Origin: Antarctobacter heliothermus
Lineage (GTDB): Bacteria > Pseudomonadota > Alphaproteobacteria > Rhodobacterales > Rhodobacteraceae
NCBI RefSeq assembly: GCF_900188425.1
Contig: NZ_FZON01000012.1
Span: forward strand, 1-64,000
Direction: 5' to 3'
Length of the DNA: 64,000 nucleotides
The notes beneath the pieces are model-generated. The model was not told the origin of the DNA and searched no databases. It worked only from the letters and a program-made list of their open reading frames with translations. The position numbers and the translations under genes were made by a program. Positions 54,758 to 60,844 of this stretch are shown piece by piece. Numbering within the stretch: the stretch's first letter is position 1; every line of letters starts with the position of its first letter.

Positions 54758-55213
54758 TTAGATCAGCAGGCCGCCCGCGCCTTCGTGGCGGAGCAACCAG
54801 ACCTTTGTCTCGACCCCTGTGCCGCCGGAAAACCCGCCCAGCCCGGCAGAGCCCAGCACCCGGTGGCAGGGGATGAGCAGCGGAATGGGATTGCCGCCAC
54901 AGCCGCGTCCCACGGCCTGCGCAGGGGCACCCAGCGCCTTGGCGATCTCACCATAAGTTGTGGTGTCTCCAAAGGGGATGGCGGCGATCCGGGCGCAAAC
55001 CTGTTGCTGAAACTCGCTGGTCTCGACCGCCAGAGGCAGGTCGAAGTCGGTCAGCGTGCCGTTGAAATAGGCGGCCACCTGGGACGCGGCGCGGCGCAAC
55101 AGCGGTGTGTCGTCCGCCGCGTCGCTGGCGATCCATGTGGCGCGGGTGATCTGGCCATTCGTTTCGGTGATCTCGAACGGGCCGGTGGGCGTGGCCACGC
55201 ACAAACGGGGCAT
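54758..55213 (-). CDS. ogt: Methylated-DNA-protein cysteine methyltransferase
   Basis: This 151-residue suicide enzyme removes alkyl groups from O6-alkylguanine. The acceptor motif IPCHRVLG has Cys116, preceded by the helix-turn-helix FGDTTTYGEIAKALGAPAQA and the arginine/glycine finger VGRGCGGNP. It lacks the Ada N-terminal domain, so it is the stand-alone Ogt form. Its ATG overlaps the stop codon of the dehalogenase-like gene (ATGA). Confidence 0.93.
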   Translation of the reverse strand: MPRLCVATPTGPFEITETNGQITRATWIASDAADDTPLLRRAASQVAAYFNGTLTDFDLPLAVETSEFQQQVCARIAAIPFGDTTTYGEIAKALGAPAQAVGRGCGGNPIPLLIPCHRVLGSAGLGGFSGGTGVETKVWLLRHEGAGGLLI

Positions 55214-56379
55214 CAGCCGGCCCACCAGTTTTGCGGTTTGACCCGTGCGCCGTGGTCCCGCGACAGCCAGAGCGCGACACGGCGGAACCGCGACAGGGCC
55301 AGCCGCCGCCAGACCCGCGCGGTCCAGCGGGTGTAGTCCCGATTGAACGGGCAGACCCGCAGGCAAATGGCGCAGTCCGAGGCAAGTTTCGCCCAGAAGC
55401 CAAAACATTTTTCCGCGTCCGAGGTCCATTTGCGCACGCCCTTGATGGCCGAGCGGTTGGGGCGGTCGGTAGAGGGCGGCCCGAATGGCAGCGCCGCAAC
55501 CGGGCAGGCATCGGCGCATTTGGTGCAGATGTCGCAGAATGCGGCCACGCCCAAGGGTTTGGGGACATCATGGGACAGGGGCAGATCGGTGAAGATCTTG
55601 GAGAACCGCAGGCGCGGGCCCAGTTGCGGCGTGATGACCAACTGGTTGCGGGCGTATTCGCCAAGCCCCGCCTTGACCGCGTAGGGAATGACCAGCGCGG
55701 TATCATTCATAGAGGCCACCGCCTGATAGCCAAGGTTGCGGATATAGGCGGCCAGTTGCAGCACCACCGCCGCCTCATGGCTGTAGGCCTTGCCGGTCGC
55801 CGCCCCCGCCAGCGCCGAGGGGTAGGTGGCGACCAGATCGGCGTCCATTTCATGGCCCAGCACGATGACGTTGGTCAGACCCTCTGGCAGATCATGCGGA
55901 GCATCGGACATGTCGCGGGTGTCGACGCGGGCGGAGTACAGCCAGCGGCGGTCAAAATCGGTGATCCCGCAAAGCTGCGCGCCAAAGAACCGCGCGGTCC
56001 GTTTGACCTCTGCCGCCATGCGGGCCGGGTCATCGACGGGGACGCGATCGGGGGAGACGGGGGTATCGGCGCTGAGCGTGGCCTGAAACCCCTCACGTCG
56101 GCCTTGGGCGGCGTGGCGGTCGGTCATGATGTCGGAAATCAGCCACGCGGCGTTGCGCAGGGCAAAATCGCGCTGGGTAAAGCCATCGCCGCGCCGGGGG
56201 GCGGCCTCGATCCTGTAGGAGGCGAAAAACGCGTCGGTGCGCGGGGAGCGGACGGTGTCATCCCACATGGCGCGGCTGAAGATGTCGTCACGCTGGGCGA
56301 AGGGCTCAAACTCTTCGCTGACCTCGATGCCAGCGGCAGCGTCCTCGGTGCGTTTTGCGCTGTTGGCGGGCCATGTCAT
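55213..56379 (-). CDS. Reductive-dehalogenase-like corrinoid/iron-sulfur protein
   Basis: This 388-residue protein carries the core of the reductive dehalogenase family: VKRTARFFGAQLCGITDFDR (125-144) with RRWLYS, LPEGLTNVIVLGHEMD, YIRNLGYQA, KAGLGEYARNQLVITPQLGP, split here at 236-255, and FSKIFTDLPL. Two 4Fe-4S motifs follow: CDICTKCADACP (C282, C285, C288, C292) and C325 with CAICLRVCP (C336, C339, C343). This matches RdhA more than QueG. There is no Tat signal and no RdhB-like membrane anchor, so it is cytosolic. Whether it dehalogenates is open. Coupling to ogt may be incidental. Confidence 0.72.
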   Translation of the reverse strand: MTWPANSAKRTEDAAAGIEVSEEFEPFAQRDDIFSRAMWDDTVRSPRTDAFFASYRIEAAPRRGDGFTQRDFALRNAAWLISDIMTDRHAAQGRREGFQATLSADTPVSPDRVPVDDPARMAAEVKRTARFFGAQLCGITDFDRRWLYSARVDTRDMSDAPHDLPEGLTNVIVLGHEMDADLVATYPSALAGAATGKAYSHEAAVVLQLAAYIRNLGYQAVASMNDTALVIPYAVKAGLGEYARNQLVITPQLGPRLRFSKIFTDLPLSHDVPKPLGVAAFCDICTKCADACPVAALPFGPPSTDRPNRSAIKGVRKWTSDAEKCFGFWAKLASDCAICLRVCPFNRDYTRWTARVWRRLALSRFRRVALWLSRDHGARVKPQNWWAG

Positions 56380-56484
56380 GCGGCGACGCTAGGCGCGGGC
56401 GACGCTGGGCACAAGAAACATGTCGCTATCGGGATTGACCCCGGCGCGCCCGCGCCGAAGGTTGGGCGCAAACAGGAGGGCAGT

Positions 56485-57438
56485 ATGGCCACGGGATTTA
56501 TTGGATTGGGCGCGGTCGGCGCCAAACTGGCGGGCAACCTGCAACGCAATGGCGTGGCGCTGCGGGTCTTTGATCTGGACGCGGCCAAGATGGCCGATTT
56601 TGTGCAGGCGGGCGCAGAGGCTGGCACATCGGCGGCGGATGTCATGGCGGCCTGCGACATTGTCATTACGTCGCTACCCAGCCCCGCGGCGTCAGAGGCG
56701 GTGCTGTTGCAGATGTTGCCGGAAATGGGACCGGGCAAGACATGGGTCGAGATGTCGACCACCGACCCGGAGGTGATTCAGGAACAGGCGGCGCGGGTGG
56801 CGGCCAAGGGGGCCATCGCGGTCGAGGCACCGGTGTCGGGCGGCTGTCACCGGGCGGCGACGGGCAATATCTCTGTGTTTTGCGGCGCGCCGCGCGCGAC
56901 ATTCGAGGCGATCCTGCCGCTGTTGACGATTCTGGGGCGGCAGGTGTTGCACACCGGGGCGGTTGGCACCGCGTCCAAGCTGAAGGTGATGACCAACTAT
57001 CTGGCCACCGCCAACCTTCTGACGCTGTGCGAGGCGCTGACCACCATGCAGGCCGCCGGGCTGGACATGGCCACGACCTATGAGGCGATCCGGGTGTCCT
57101 CTGGCACGTCGTTTGTGCATGAGACGGAAAGCCAGTTGATCCTGTCGGGCAGCCGCGACGTGGATTTTGCGCTGGATCTGGTGATGAAGGACGTGGGCCT
57201 GTTTCAGTCGCTGGCCGATGCGCATGGCGTGCCTCTGGAGCTGTCGCCGCTGGTGATTTCGATGATCAAGGACGGGCAGGCGCGGTTCGGCGCGCAGGCG
57301 CAGTCCGACCGGATGATCGAGCGGCTGGAAGAGGCCACCGGCCTGTCGGTGCGCGCGCCGGGGTTCCCGCAGGAACTGGTCGACGATGAGCCGCCCGCGC
57401 GCGGGGCCGAGGTGGTTGTGCGCCGGGAGGCTGTGTAG
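56485..57438 (+). CDS. 3-hydroxyisobutyrate dehydrogenase-family NAD(P) oxidoreductase
   Basis: This 317-residue beta-hydroxyacid dehydrogenase has the cofactor loop GFIGLGAVGAKLAGNL (4-19), the substrate motif VEAPVSGGCHRAATGNISVF near 113-132 and the catalytic lysine in GTASKLKVMTNYL near 167. The family includes 3-hydroxyisobutyrate dehydrogenase and tartronate semialdehyde reductase. The substrate is uncertain. An AGGAGGG site 4 bases before the ATG fixes the start; the long upstream in-frame extension overlaps the divergent dehalogenase-like gene and is spurious. Confidence 0.88.
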   Translation: MATGFIGLGAVGAKLAGNLQRNGVALRVFDLDAAKMADFVQAGAEAGTSAADVMAACDIVITSLPSPAASEAVLLQMLPEMGPGKTWVEMSTTDPEVIQEQAARVAAKGAIAVEAPVSGGCHRAATGNISVFCGAPRATFEAILPLLTILGRQVLHTGAVGTASKLKVMTNYLATANLLTLCEALTTMQAAGLDMATTYEAIRVSSGTSFVHETESQLILSGSRDVDFALDLVMKDVGLFQSLADAHGVPLELSPLVISMIKDGQARFGAQAQSDRMIERLEEATGLSVRAPGFPQELVDDEPPARGAEVVVRREAV

Positions 57439-57532: not shown

Positions 57533-58012
57533 ATGGCACAGGAAGAACTGGCACGGATCACGGCCTCGGCCTCGCGGCGGGTGATCGGTGTAGGCTCGAT
57601 GATGGGGCTGGGGGCGCTGGTGGTTTATGTGGCGCTCAGCACGCCGGAGATGGCGCTGGGCTGGAAGGCCGTGTTGGTGGCGCTGGGCATCGTCGGGTTG
57701 GTTCTGGCGCAGTTGATGTGGCAGTCGACCGGCCATGTGCTGATCCTGACCGAAGAGGCGCTGACCGACAGCGACGGCACGGTTGTGGCGCGGCTGGAGA
57801 ATGTCGCCAAGGTGGACCGGGGCATGTTCGCGATGAAACCGTCGAACGGGTTTCTGGTGATCCTCAAGGAACCGGGGCCGCGTGCGTGGCGGCCGGGCCT
57901 GTGGTGGCGGTTGGGGCGGCGGGTGGCCGTGGGCGGTGTGACCGCCGGGTCGCAGACGCGCCCGGTGGCCGACGTCATGATCCATCTGCTGCATAACCGG
58001 GACAACGGTTAG
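57533..58012 (+). CDS. Small membrane protein of unknown function
   Basis: This 159-residue protein has two hydrophobic segments (VGSMMGLGALVVYVALS, about 20-36, and AVLVALGIVGLVLAQLMW, about 46-63) followed by a soluble part with VLILTEEALTDSDGTVVARL and HLLHNRD at the end. The arrangement suggests two membrane helices and a cytosolic beta-rich domain, but I do not recognise a named family. It follows the preceding gene after 94 bases and ends before a terminator. Confidence 0.7.
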   Translation: MAQEELARITASASRRVIGVGSMMGLGALVVYVALSTPEMALGWKAVLVALGIVGLVLAQLMWQSTGHVLILTEEALTDSDGTVVARLENVAKVDRGMFAMKPSNGFLVILKEPGPRAWRPGLWWRLGRRVAVGGVTAGSQTRPVADVMIHLLHNRDNG

Positions 58013-58106: not shown

Positions 58107-58658
58107 TCAGGCCGATTGATCGAACACAACCTGCGGCGCATAGCGCGGGCGGGTAAAGCTGTAGGTGCGGATCTCAAAGGCATCGAGGCCGACACTGAGC
58201 GCCGGATTGTAGGCGTCCCAGGTTTCCACCATGATCAGCTGGTCGCCATTGGTGCCCGAGGGCAGTTTGTCGGCGTAGATGGCCAGGTCGCCGGTGTTGA
58301 GCACCGGTTTGTCGCCGCGTTCGTTCGACCACACCACGTTCCAGCCGCCGTGGCTGTCGCTGTACTGGACCACCGTGACGCGCAGGTCGCTATCGGCGCC
58401 GCTGGTCTTGGTCAGGTGGCGCAGCAGGCCCTGGGCGTTGGTGAGATAGTCCGGGGTGATCGCCGCCGTCTCGCGTGAGATCATGTCGCCGATCACGTAG
58501 TTGGCCTTTTGGTTGACGGCCTGCTGGCGGAAGGCGTCGAAGTAGGTCCAGCCGACGCCGAACAGAAAGAGCAGCGCGGGGAAGACGATGACCGCCTCGA
58601 CGTTGACGAAACCGCGGGTGTCAGAGGCGAAACGCTGGAGGAACGAAGGAAGGCGCAT
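58107..58658 (-). CDS. TadE-like pilus assembly protein
   Basis: This 183-residue protein has the short basic start and hydrophobic segment of TadE/TadF pseudopilins: RGFVNVEAVIVFPALLFLFG (16-35), with a Glu inside the hydrophobic stretch. The rest is probably periplasmic. It is the last gene of a three-gene minus-strand group with 58671 and 59201. It likely supports Flp/Tad surface fibres, although no tadABC genes are in the window. Confidence 0.78.
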   Translation of the reverse strand: MRLPSFLQRFASDTRGFVNVEAVIVFPALLFLFGVGWTYFDAFRQQAVNQKANYVIGDMISRETAAITPDYLTNAQGLLRHLTKTSGADSDLRVTVVQYSDSHGGWNVVWSNERGDKPVLNTGDLAIYADKLPSGTNGDQLIMVETWDAYNPALSVGLDAFEIRTYSFTRPRYAPQVVFDQSA

Positions 58659-58670
58659 GGCTGGATCTCC

Positions 58671-59204
58671 TCAGCTGGGTTCGTAGACAAAGGCAGAGGT
58701 CGACACGATGGCGGTATAGCCTTGGTCGTCCTTGGGCAGGCTGGCGTTCAGCGTGGCCGCCGGGGTGGCGGGGCGGAACTTGAAACAGGCGCGCAGGAAC
58801 ATCAGCTGCCCGCCGCTGCCATGGCTGAAGGCGCGTTGCGGCGTTGCGTCCTGGCTGACGTCGACACAATCGGCGGTGGCCGGCGGTTCGGCGTAGTTGC
58901 GCATGTTCAGCGGGATCATCTCGAGGTGCAGCATGGCGTTGCAGTTCTGCAGCACGGTGGTCTTGTCGCAGATCGCCGCCTTGAGCGCGTCATGGGTGGG
59001 GGCGGTCACGCCGATCTTGACCTCACGCACGGTCTGGTCCAGTGCGCGCTCAAGCTGGGTGTGGCGGACGGTGATCGTGCCGATTTCGACGGTCGAGACG
59101 ATCAGGCCGATGAACAACGGCAGCCAGAGCGCGTAGGGGACAACCGCATTGCCGGCCTCGTCGGCCCAGAAGCGGCGCAGGGGGGAAAGGAAGGCGCGGG
59201 TCAT
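58671..59204 (-). CDS. TadE/TadF-like pseudopilin protein
   Basis: This 177-residue protein resembles its downstream neighbour: a short basic segment, then EAGNAVVPYALWLPLFIGLI (15-34) as the hydrophobic segment. Four cysteines occur in the periplasmic part (AICDK, QNCN, DCVD and ACF). It overlaps the upstream TadG-like gene by 4 bases. Family membership is judged from the N-terminus and gene context. Confidence 0.75.
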   Translation of the reverse strand: MTRAFLSPLRRFWADEAGNAVVPYALWLPLFIGLIVSTVEIGTITVRHTQLERALDQTVREVKIGVTAPTHDALKAAICDKTTVLQNCNAMLHLEMIPLNMRNYAEPPATADCVDVSQDATPQRAFSHGSGGQLMFLRACFKFRPATPAATLNASLPKDDQGYTAIVSTSAFVYEPS

Positions 59205-60844
59205 TGGGTCAACCTCAGTTGGGTGATTGTGTTGGCGATGGAGGCAAAGGTTTCTTCGAGATCGGTTCCGTTGACGTCAAAAAAGTGGGCCGGGGAGGAG
59301 GCGCAGTTGCGCATGGCGTCCAGCCCCCTTGACGGTGCCTCAAAGCCGATGGCGAAGACCACGACACCCTGTGCCTTGGCTGCGTCGCAGATGCTTTCGA
59401 GGCGGTTGTCGGCCGGGTCCGCACCGACGGTGGCCTCATAGGCGTAGTAGATGTCACTGTAGGTGCCGTAGGACACATAGCCATCGTAGTAGGGGCGCTG
59501 GTACATCTTGCTGCCCACGGCGCGGGTGCCAAAGCGGGCAAACAGCTCGGCGTTGGTCATGCGGCGGGCGTTGGACCCCCCGTCAGGCGATCCGCGATAG
59601 CGATAGCTCTGCGAATACCCCTCATAGCGCTGCCAGAAATAGGTGTCGTTGTCGCTGCCAGAGTTGTCGACCACCCGCAAAGAGAAGCGGTCGTCGGACG
59701 GATCGCCGTTGCCGCGCTCGTCGATCCAGACATCCGAATACCCGTATTTATGATGCGGTTTCAGGTCGTATTGCGTGGTGTTTTCGCCGTCGGTCATGAT
59801 GACCACATATTTCGATGTCTCCGGGTCCGCGTAGGACGCCGGACGCGCGGCGAAACTTGCATCCACCAGCCCGTCATCGGACATGGCGGTGATCGCCGGG
59901 CGTGCGGCGGGGTCAAGCAGGGCAGCCCCCCATTTCATCCCCAGGTCAATGGCGGTGTTGCCGCCTGCGTTCAACGAGTCGATGTGGGCCTTGAGCGTCG
60001 CCGGATCAGACCTGTGCGCCATGACGGCGCTGGTGTCGCCGGTGCGGCACCACGGGCTGGCGATCTGTGTGGCGTTTGTATTGGTCGAATTCAGATCGAA
60101 ATGGGCAAGGCGGGTCAGTTCCTCGCTAGGCGAGATCGCCGCCTGATCAAAGTCGGACTGGTCGAAGGTCACGCAGTTCGAATAATCATGCAGGTCGTCC
60201 AGTGTGAAATAGCTGGCCGTCGTGGCGCCCAGATTCACGGTTGCGTTGTAGGGCACGATCGAAATCGTGGTCAGCGCCTGGCTGTCCGGGGGCATCATGA
60301 TGTCGACAAAGCTGCGCGCGGCGCTGCGCATGTTGACGATCTTGCTGTTCCAGCCCATCGAGCCGGACACGTCGAGCACCATGGAAATCTCGATGTTGGC
60401 GGTGGCGTGTTCGGCGGTGGCGCGTCCGAAGGCGTCGAGTGTGTCGACCCCGATCAGCGACATGAAGTCGGATGAGATCGCGGATTGACCGACGGCGGAC
60501 ACGCGTTTGGCGGTCATGCTCTGCTCGACGTCGATCGAGGTCAGCGCATCGCCCAGCCCCATGGCGGCAAAATACTCTTCGACCACCTGTTGCGGGGCGA
60601 TGGCGTTTTCGATGTTGGCGGCGGCCAGCACGGCGCGGTCCAGCGTGTTCTGCACTTTGATGCGCTTCAGCTCGGCGTGCATCATGTCGATGCCGACCCC
60701 GCCAAAGACCATCATGACCAACGAGCCTATGATGGCGATGTAGGACATGTTCCCGGAGGTATCTGCGGCAAACGCGCGAAGGCGCGATGTGAACGCGAGG
60801 CGGCTGGTAATGAAGCCGGTCAGACTGGTGGTCGATTTCAACAT
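59201..60844 (-). CDS. TadG-like protein with von Willebrand A domain
   Basis: This 547-residue protein begins with a TadE-type anchor (TSGNMSYIAIIGSLVMMVFG, 29-48), then the conserved KVQNTLDRAVLAAA segment. A von Willebrand A domain follows with MIDAS DVSGSMG near 160, a conserved MTDGENTT and the C-terminal ANTITQLRLTQ segment. A large region of Tyr, Asp and Gly in the middle suggests an insertion. It is likely a surface or periplasmic adhesion or fibre-assembly protein. Confidence 0.85.
   Translation of the reverse strand: MLKSTTSLTGFITSRLAFTSRLRAFAADTSGNMSYIAIIGSLVMMVFGGVGIDMMHAELKRIKVQNTLDRAVLAAANIENAIAPQQVVEEYFAAMGLGDALTSIDVEQSMTAKRVSAVGQSAISSDFMSLIGVDTLDAFGRATAEHATANIEISMVLDVSGSMGWNSKIVNMRSAARSFVDIMMPPDSQALTTISIVPYNATVNLGATTASYFTLDDLHDYSNCVTFDQSDFDQAAISPSEELTRLAHFDLNSTNTNATQIASPWCRTGDTSAVMAHRSDPATLKAHIDSLNAGGNTAIDLGMKWGAALLDPAARPAITAMSDDGLVDASFAARPASYADPETSKYVVIMTDGENTTQYDLKPHHKYGYSDVWIDERGNGDPSDDRFSLRVVDNSGSDNDTYFWQRYEGYSQSYRYRGSPDGGSNARRMTNAELFARFGTRAVGSKMYQRPYYDGYVSYGTYSDIYYAYEATVGADPADNRLESICDAAKAQGVVVFAIGFEAPSRGLDAMRNCASSPAHFFDVNGTDLEETFASIANTITQLRLTQ

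Follow-up and report, generated by a model that had tools for sequence, protein, structure and literature searches.

A probable cytosolic reductive dehalogenase of Antarctobacter heliothermus, orthologous to a roseobacter debrominase, and its apparent loss in congeners

Results

We analysed a stretch of 64,000 nucleotides of the Antarctobacter heliothermus genome (contig NZ_FZON01000012.1, positions 1 to 64,000; the window), whose minus strand carries an open reading frame, rdhA (55213–56379), that starts with ATG and encodes 388 residues. The initial annotation had given these coordinates exactly, without the strand. The open reading frame list, the translation, and the profile, phmmer and fold matches described below together point to a reductive dehalogenase without a Tat signal, which is probably cytosolic. 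On the same strand, ogt (54758–55213), encoding a methylated-DNA--protein-cysteine methyltransferase, follows rdhA; its start lies inside the rdhA stop codon (TGATG), and the two genes may therefore be translated in series. On the other side, a 105-bp divergent intergenic region (56380–56484), presumed to hold the rdhA promoter and partly kept in congeners that lack rdhA, separates rdhA from a plus-strand dehydrogenase gene (56485–57438) of the 3-hydroxyisobutyrate/tartronate-semialdehyde reductase type, whose product scores under every listed equivalog cut-off. A longer plus-strand frame that overlaps rdhA (735 aa) was set aside as an antisense extension of this dehydrogenase gene.

The rdhA product scored above the curated cut-off of TIGR02486, the NCBIfam reductive dehalogenase model (170.1 bits, cut-off 160.35, E 1e-49), and stayed far under that of the QueG model TIGR00276 (46.2 bits, cut-off 200). 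The Pfam model PF13486, which had also been proposed for this comparison, was by itself borderline, giving 23.3 bits against a cut-off of 24.3 in the protein search; in the genome search it reached 24.2 bits, or 24.7, over the cut-off, when its neighbours in frame were counted. Among solved structures, phmmer placed PceA chains first (8q4h, E 4e-47, and 4uqu of S. multivorans, E 1e-45; 164 and 159 bits), ahead of NpRdhA (4ras, E 4e-31, 111 bits) and then QueG (5d08, E 2e-9). Matches of this strength to TIGR02486 and to PceA rule out a chance open reading frame. The genome encodes its own QueG at another place (442.8 bits to TIGR00276), and this was the sole other match of the query protein in the genome; no second RdhA was found. 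It also encodes the cobalamin-synthesis protein CbiC/CobH (230.8 bits), one gene rather than a whole pathway.

The sequence blocks by which the protein had been recognized as RdhA-like (FFGAQLCGITDFDRRWLY, YIRNLGYQA and GLGEYARNQLVITPQLGP) were all found in the translation, as were the cysteines assigned to two clusters, namely C282, C285, C288 and C292 in the first [4Fe-4S] motif (55504–55536, minus strand) and C325, C336, C339 and C343 in the second group of ligands (55351–55407, minus strand); a ninth cysteine stands at residue 137. In the phmmer alignments Tyr199 (55783–55785, minus strand), Asn225, Arg258 (55606–55608, minus strand) and Trp329, which lies within the second ligand group, align with PceA Tyr246, Asn272, Arg305 and Trp376, the residues named around the substrate in PMC5500849, where the tyrosine is the proposed proton donor; NpRdhA has a lysine at the place of Arg258. 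The eight cluster cysteines and these four residues did not vary in any of the 93 aligned rows, made up of the query and 92 homologues; these rows are not 93 independent cases because they contain near-duplicates (L002 is the query itself, and L004 and L037 apparently come from the same strain). An active site lacking the RdhA tyrosine and Lys/Arg had been named in the initial annotation as an argument against this family; Tyr199 and Arg258 were present in every row.

An AlphaFold2 model of the product, built with 45 sequences, was of middling confidence (mean pLDDT 69.8, pTM 0.75), and residues 283–299 and 332–345, at the clusters, had pLDDT values below 50. The model nevertheless gave the RdhA fold over most of the chain. 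It matched PceA structures with Z scores of 26–29 (29.4 over 356 residues for 8q4h) and NpRdhA with 24–25 (24.8 over 328 residues for 4ras), as against 12.2–12.8 over 195–199 residues for QueG chains, and the Foldseek ranking likewise put RdhA structures above QueG. PceA of Sulfurospirillum multivorans and the 8q4h RdhA are thus the closest solved structures both by sequence and by fold, and the pocket Tyr, Asn, Arg and Trp of PceA are kept in the query; these two proteins differ from it in being membrane-associated and respiratory, and share only ~23–28% identity with it in the structure alignments.

To place the protein among its relatives we used a corrected tree of 40 rows (35 RdhA-like and 5 QueG), in which two rows cut wrongly at first (L004 and L009) were corrected, L163 was renamed L010_orth52 (the same gene), and the long-branch rows L146 (Dehalococcoides) and L160 were left out, so that one presumed respiratory row remained. 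The RdhA-like rows stood apart from the QueG rows with support of 100/100, in a tree without an NpRdhA row. The query's group (16 rows, 98/97) fell beside the presumed respiratory row, a Sulfurospirillum RdhA (93/82), and the BhbA/fused group (10 rows) was separate at 100/100. With a single respiratory row, the placing beside the respiratory type is weak, and the phmmer scores agree with it. A first tree was set aside because of the wrong cuts in L004 and L009; in it, the query's group formed an open fork with the fused group and two presumed respiratory rows.

We then looked for features of the respiratory type. A search with one pattern for a Tat-like RR motif found none within the N-terminal 50 residues of either the query or the 92 homologues, nor did any of these proteins have an N-terminal hydrophobic stretch; the most hydrophobic 19-residue window in the query (1.2, Kyte-Doolittle) begins at residue 325. 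The open frame extends just three codons upstream of the ATG (391 against 388 codons), too little for an overlooked signal peptide. Nor was an RdhB-like frame found beside rdhA among 37 open reading frames of 50–200 aa within ~3 kb on each side, ogt and the divergent dehydrogenase gene being the adjoining genes. The lack of a Tat signal and of an RdhB-like neighbour, both claimed in the initial annotation, thus stands, and supports its view that the protein is not of the respiratory type. Its further remark, that catabolic enzymes such as NpRdhA carry a reductase domain that is absent here, is right about the 388-aa product, whose Pfam matches included neither a flavin nor a 2Fe-2S domain, and wrong about NpRdhA: PMC10463259 lists it among the catabolic RdhAs without a fused reductase and gives JtRdhA as the fused one. 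What NpRdhA (4ras, 6zxu; 704–725 aa) does have is an extra N-terminal stretch, a second match to the same domain, which is absent from the query. Judged from sequence and model, the rdhA product seems to be a whole catalytic unit that lacks an export signal, an anchor, an N-terminal extension and a fused reductase.

Only one of the 37 small flanking frames has two hydrophobic segments. It encodes 159 aa (57533–58012), has no Pfam match, lies on the opposite strand beyond the dehydrogenase gene, and adjoins Tad-type genes (58107–60844).

Homologues of at least 47% identity and nearly full length were present in 10 of 61 genomes, including the query's own. In a sample of 394 genomes of the family, 53 matched with an E value of 5e-94 or lower, five of these matches being partial and one of the five carrying an internal stop; 177 had any match at E 1e-15. 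The remaining rows among the matches listed were mostly open frames of ~1050–1280 aa, as long as the fused type, and frames of this length with the same core are common in the family. No orthologue was found on plasmids in 72,556 records (14 matched, the best at below 60% identity). Scanning genome contigs yielded 153 relatives, and we kept the best 80. These 80 bore mostly names of Rhodobacteraceae and Roseobacter-group genera, apart from a few metagenome bins labelled otherwise (for example L066 Salaquimonas, L076 Nitratireductor, L095 Deltaproteobacteria, L101 Rhodobiaceae and L113 Cohaesibacteraceae).

One of these relatives has been characterized. The protein of locus L053, from Roseobacter sp. 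MED193, is 76% identical to the query over residues 1–386 and has CDICTKCADACP at 283 and CAICMRVCP at 337, the motifs printed at these positions for Ros_A3X954 of Roseobacter sp. MED193 (PMC13101508); the same strain and the same motifs at the same positions identify L053 as Ros_A3X954. According to that report, published in April 2026, the 395-aa protein was made in E. coli and purified, and debrominates 2,6-dibromophenol to 2-bromophenol (kcat 1.1 per s, KM 71 μM, kcat/KM 1.5e4 per M per s) in an assay that used Ti(III) citrate and methyl viologen. For each protein it contained 8.06 Fe, 5.64 acid-labile S and 0.11 Co; it is described as lacking a Tat signal and as losing activity in oxygen (the latter as data not shown), and the screen described there covered only six organohalides (PMC13101508). 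With so small a screen, the true substrate may be a compound other than 2,6-dibromophenol. The two orthologues share the cluster motifs and pocket residues and differ in genus and in the next gene downstream, which is ogt here and, at the Roseobacter locus, a member of a 308-aa family; activity was measured for the Roseobacter protein.

This 308-aa family is presumably pirin or pirin-like. It lies on the rdhA strand in 35 of the 80 loci (the best 80 of 153) and adjoins rdhA in 24. In the same 80 loci the dehydrogenase gene was found upstream of rdhA in 37 (26 of them with a distance of at most 600 bp), relatives of the 159-aa frame in 46, and ogt in only two, one of them in the same genus; all these neighbour counts are rough, since the open reading frames behind them were selected on length and on GC by codon position. 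When the 27 most frequent neighbour families were inspected by eye on their initial 60 residues, none was recognized as a ferredoxin, a ferredoxin reductase or an aromatic-degradation gene, and among the commonest families of the best 80 loci we saw neither a recurrent electron-donor gene nor a recurrent gene of phenol or halogen metabolism beside rdhA. In eight of the best 80 loci (L061, L067, L073, L084, L090, L094, L096 and L099) a frame of 291–302 aa lies directly upstream on the same strand as rdhA; it is LysR-like by eye and a possible candidate regulator. We had considered ogt as a link to alkylating substrates and dropped the idea, because the congeners that lack rdhA still have ogt at the same place.

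Within the genus, three of six genomes (G000, G001 and G002) carry rdhA, and in the other three (G003, G004 and G005) the rdhA product found only a weak match of QueG type. All six have ogt and the dehydrogenase gene, the latter with one internal stop in G003. In the three genomes without rdhA the gap between these genes is 207–234 bp and gives no rdhA protein match (loci L177–L179, at G003:C216:330688–330897, G004:C26:49006–49241 and G005:C27:334133–334341). Part of the upstream region is kept there, together with the ATG and the first codons, which read MTWP in G004 and G005 and MTSP in G003 (the family consensus start is MxWPxNxP), and the short frame that results, 33 codons long in G003 and G005 and 42 in G004, runs into ogt with the same TGATG overlap. 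DNA this rich in GC contains many short open frames, and an exact copy of the 12 bases that start rdhA is found twice in the window, once outside rdhA, so neither feature is proof alone. It is the combination of position, kept upstream stretch and ogt overlap that makes loss of rdhA in place the best reading of these three loci. The ogt genes of G003, G004 and G005 are 88–92% identical in bases to one another and 75–79% to the other three; this groups the three genomes, and a single loss would therefore be enough.

Discussion

Taken together, the results make it very probable that rdhA encodes a stand-alone, cytosolic, catabolic reductive dehalogenase, the orthologue of Ros_A3X954, that would debrominate or deiodinate phenols by means of B12 and two [4Fe-4S] clusters. 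Inside the marine bacterium, the enzyme most likely takes bromine or iodine off phenol-like compounds. The initial annotation had suggested a cytosolic B12/Fe-S enzyme acting on halogenated marine organics, which can now be called probable, given that Ros_A3X954 is reported to have such activity (PMC13101508). Debromination, about 8 Fe and some bound Co have been shown for that protein, and we infer the same chemistry for its Antarctobacter counterpart.

In the mechanism that we propose, a cobamide would be held in the nitroreductase-like domain, and electrons would pass from a low-potential cellular carrier, presumably ferredoxin or flavodoxin, through the two [4Fe-4S] clusters to cobalt. The reduced cobalt would drive the loss of bromide or iodide, most likely ortho to the phenolic hydroxyl, with Tyr199 donating the proton and Arg258 placed beside it. 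Whether RdhA enzymes form a cobalt–halogen bond or transfer electrons at a distance is described as debated for the family (PMC5500849).

Known catabolic enzymes offer two further comparisons. NpRdhA, which is close to the model in fold, acts on ortho-bromophenols (PMC5500849). JtRdhA and BhbA have the same catalytic core, and JtRdhA uses brominated and iodinated phenols (PMC10463259); unlike the query, however, these proteins are self-sufficient through a fused reductase part. BhbA and the fused rows form the separate branch of the tree, and JtRdhA works in air.

The rdhA product could be an RdhA-family enzyme with a real substrate other than a bromophenol, phenol debromination being a side activity. 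In respiratory PceA, the turnover of some bromophenols is up to 40 times as fast as that of tetrachloroethene (PMC5500849), which makes bromophenol activity a weak guide to the natural substrate; the 27 neighbour families viewed by eye held no recurrent aromatic-degradation gene; and oxygen sensitivity is reported for an enzyme whose roseobacter hosts are predominantly aerobic (PMC13101508). We nonetheless regard a different natural substrate as unlikely, because the kcat/KM of Ros_A3X954 is substantial, bromophenols are made by marine organisms (PMC13101508), and a homologue from Pararhodobacter aggregans (72.2% identical to Ros_A3X954) is cited as reducing 2,4,6-triiodophenol (ref. 21 of PMC13101508). 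A broader picture would join several of these points: rdhA as a single-gene module fed with electrons by general carriers, with a role other than on bromophenols (for example on algal signals or the cell's own halogenated metabolites), whose loss in one branch of the genus left a start-to-stop remnant of 33–42 codons that still couples translation into ogt. As a whole, this picture is speculative and rather doubtful.

A respiratory dehalogenase with an unusual export or anchor, conserving energy under anoxia, would fit the pairing of the query's group with the Sulfurospirillum RdhA rather than with the BhbA/fused group, the higher phmmer scores to PceA than to NpRdhA, and the recurrence near rdhA of relatives of the 159-aa frame with two hydrophobic segments. 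That frame, however, is on the opposite strand and adjoins Tad-type genes, the earlier tree with two presumed respiratory rows (and two badly cut ones) left a three-way fork, and neither an RR motif or hydrophobic N-terminus among the 92 homologues nor an adjacent RdhB-like frame was found, which makes respiration through this protein highly improbable. The other alternative raised in the initial annotation, a diverged paralogue of QueG (the tRNA epoxyqueuosine reductase) without dehalogenase function, shares with the query the build of a B12 domain plus a dicluster domain, and with it the weak TIGR00276 match, but we reject it as having next to no likelihood in view of 170 against 46 bits, the separate true QueG in the same genome, the 100/100 split in the tree, fold Z scores of 24–29 against 12–13, and the dehalogenation reported for the 76% identical orthologue (PMC13101508).

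The observation of a cytosolic reductive dehalogenase at this locus is real, but not new as a kind, since an orthologue has already been published with its activity. Cytosolic debrominases are common in marine roseobacters and have been characterized only recently; in the literature searched we found no report on this very gene, nor one on the activity in a living roseobacter. The present analysis adds to the family a further genus and a history of gene loss, and the three congeners without rdhA provide a natural comparison.

Two smaller sets of relatives emerged alongside the query's group. At the base of that group lie three homologues with 47–52% identity to the query and frames of 423–449 aa (L161, L162, which is L011, and L163, which is L010), one from the same family (G279) and two from other families (G043 and G037); L161, the only one of the three that was scanned, passes TIGR02486 with 174.8 bits. 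A separate clade (L147–L150, L154 and L157–L159) consists of short RdhA-like proteins from other Alphaproteobacteria, with frames of 329–380 aa and one of 493. The three of these eight that were scanned scored 97–113 bits against TIGR02486 (cut-off 160.35) and 44–55 bits against QueG (cut-off 200), passing neither, and the clade is possibly an uncharacterized third group.
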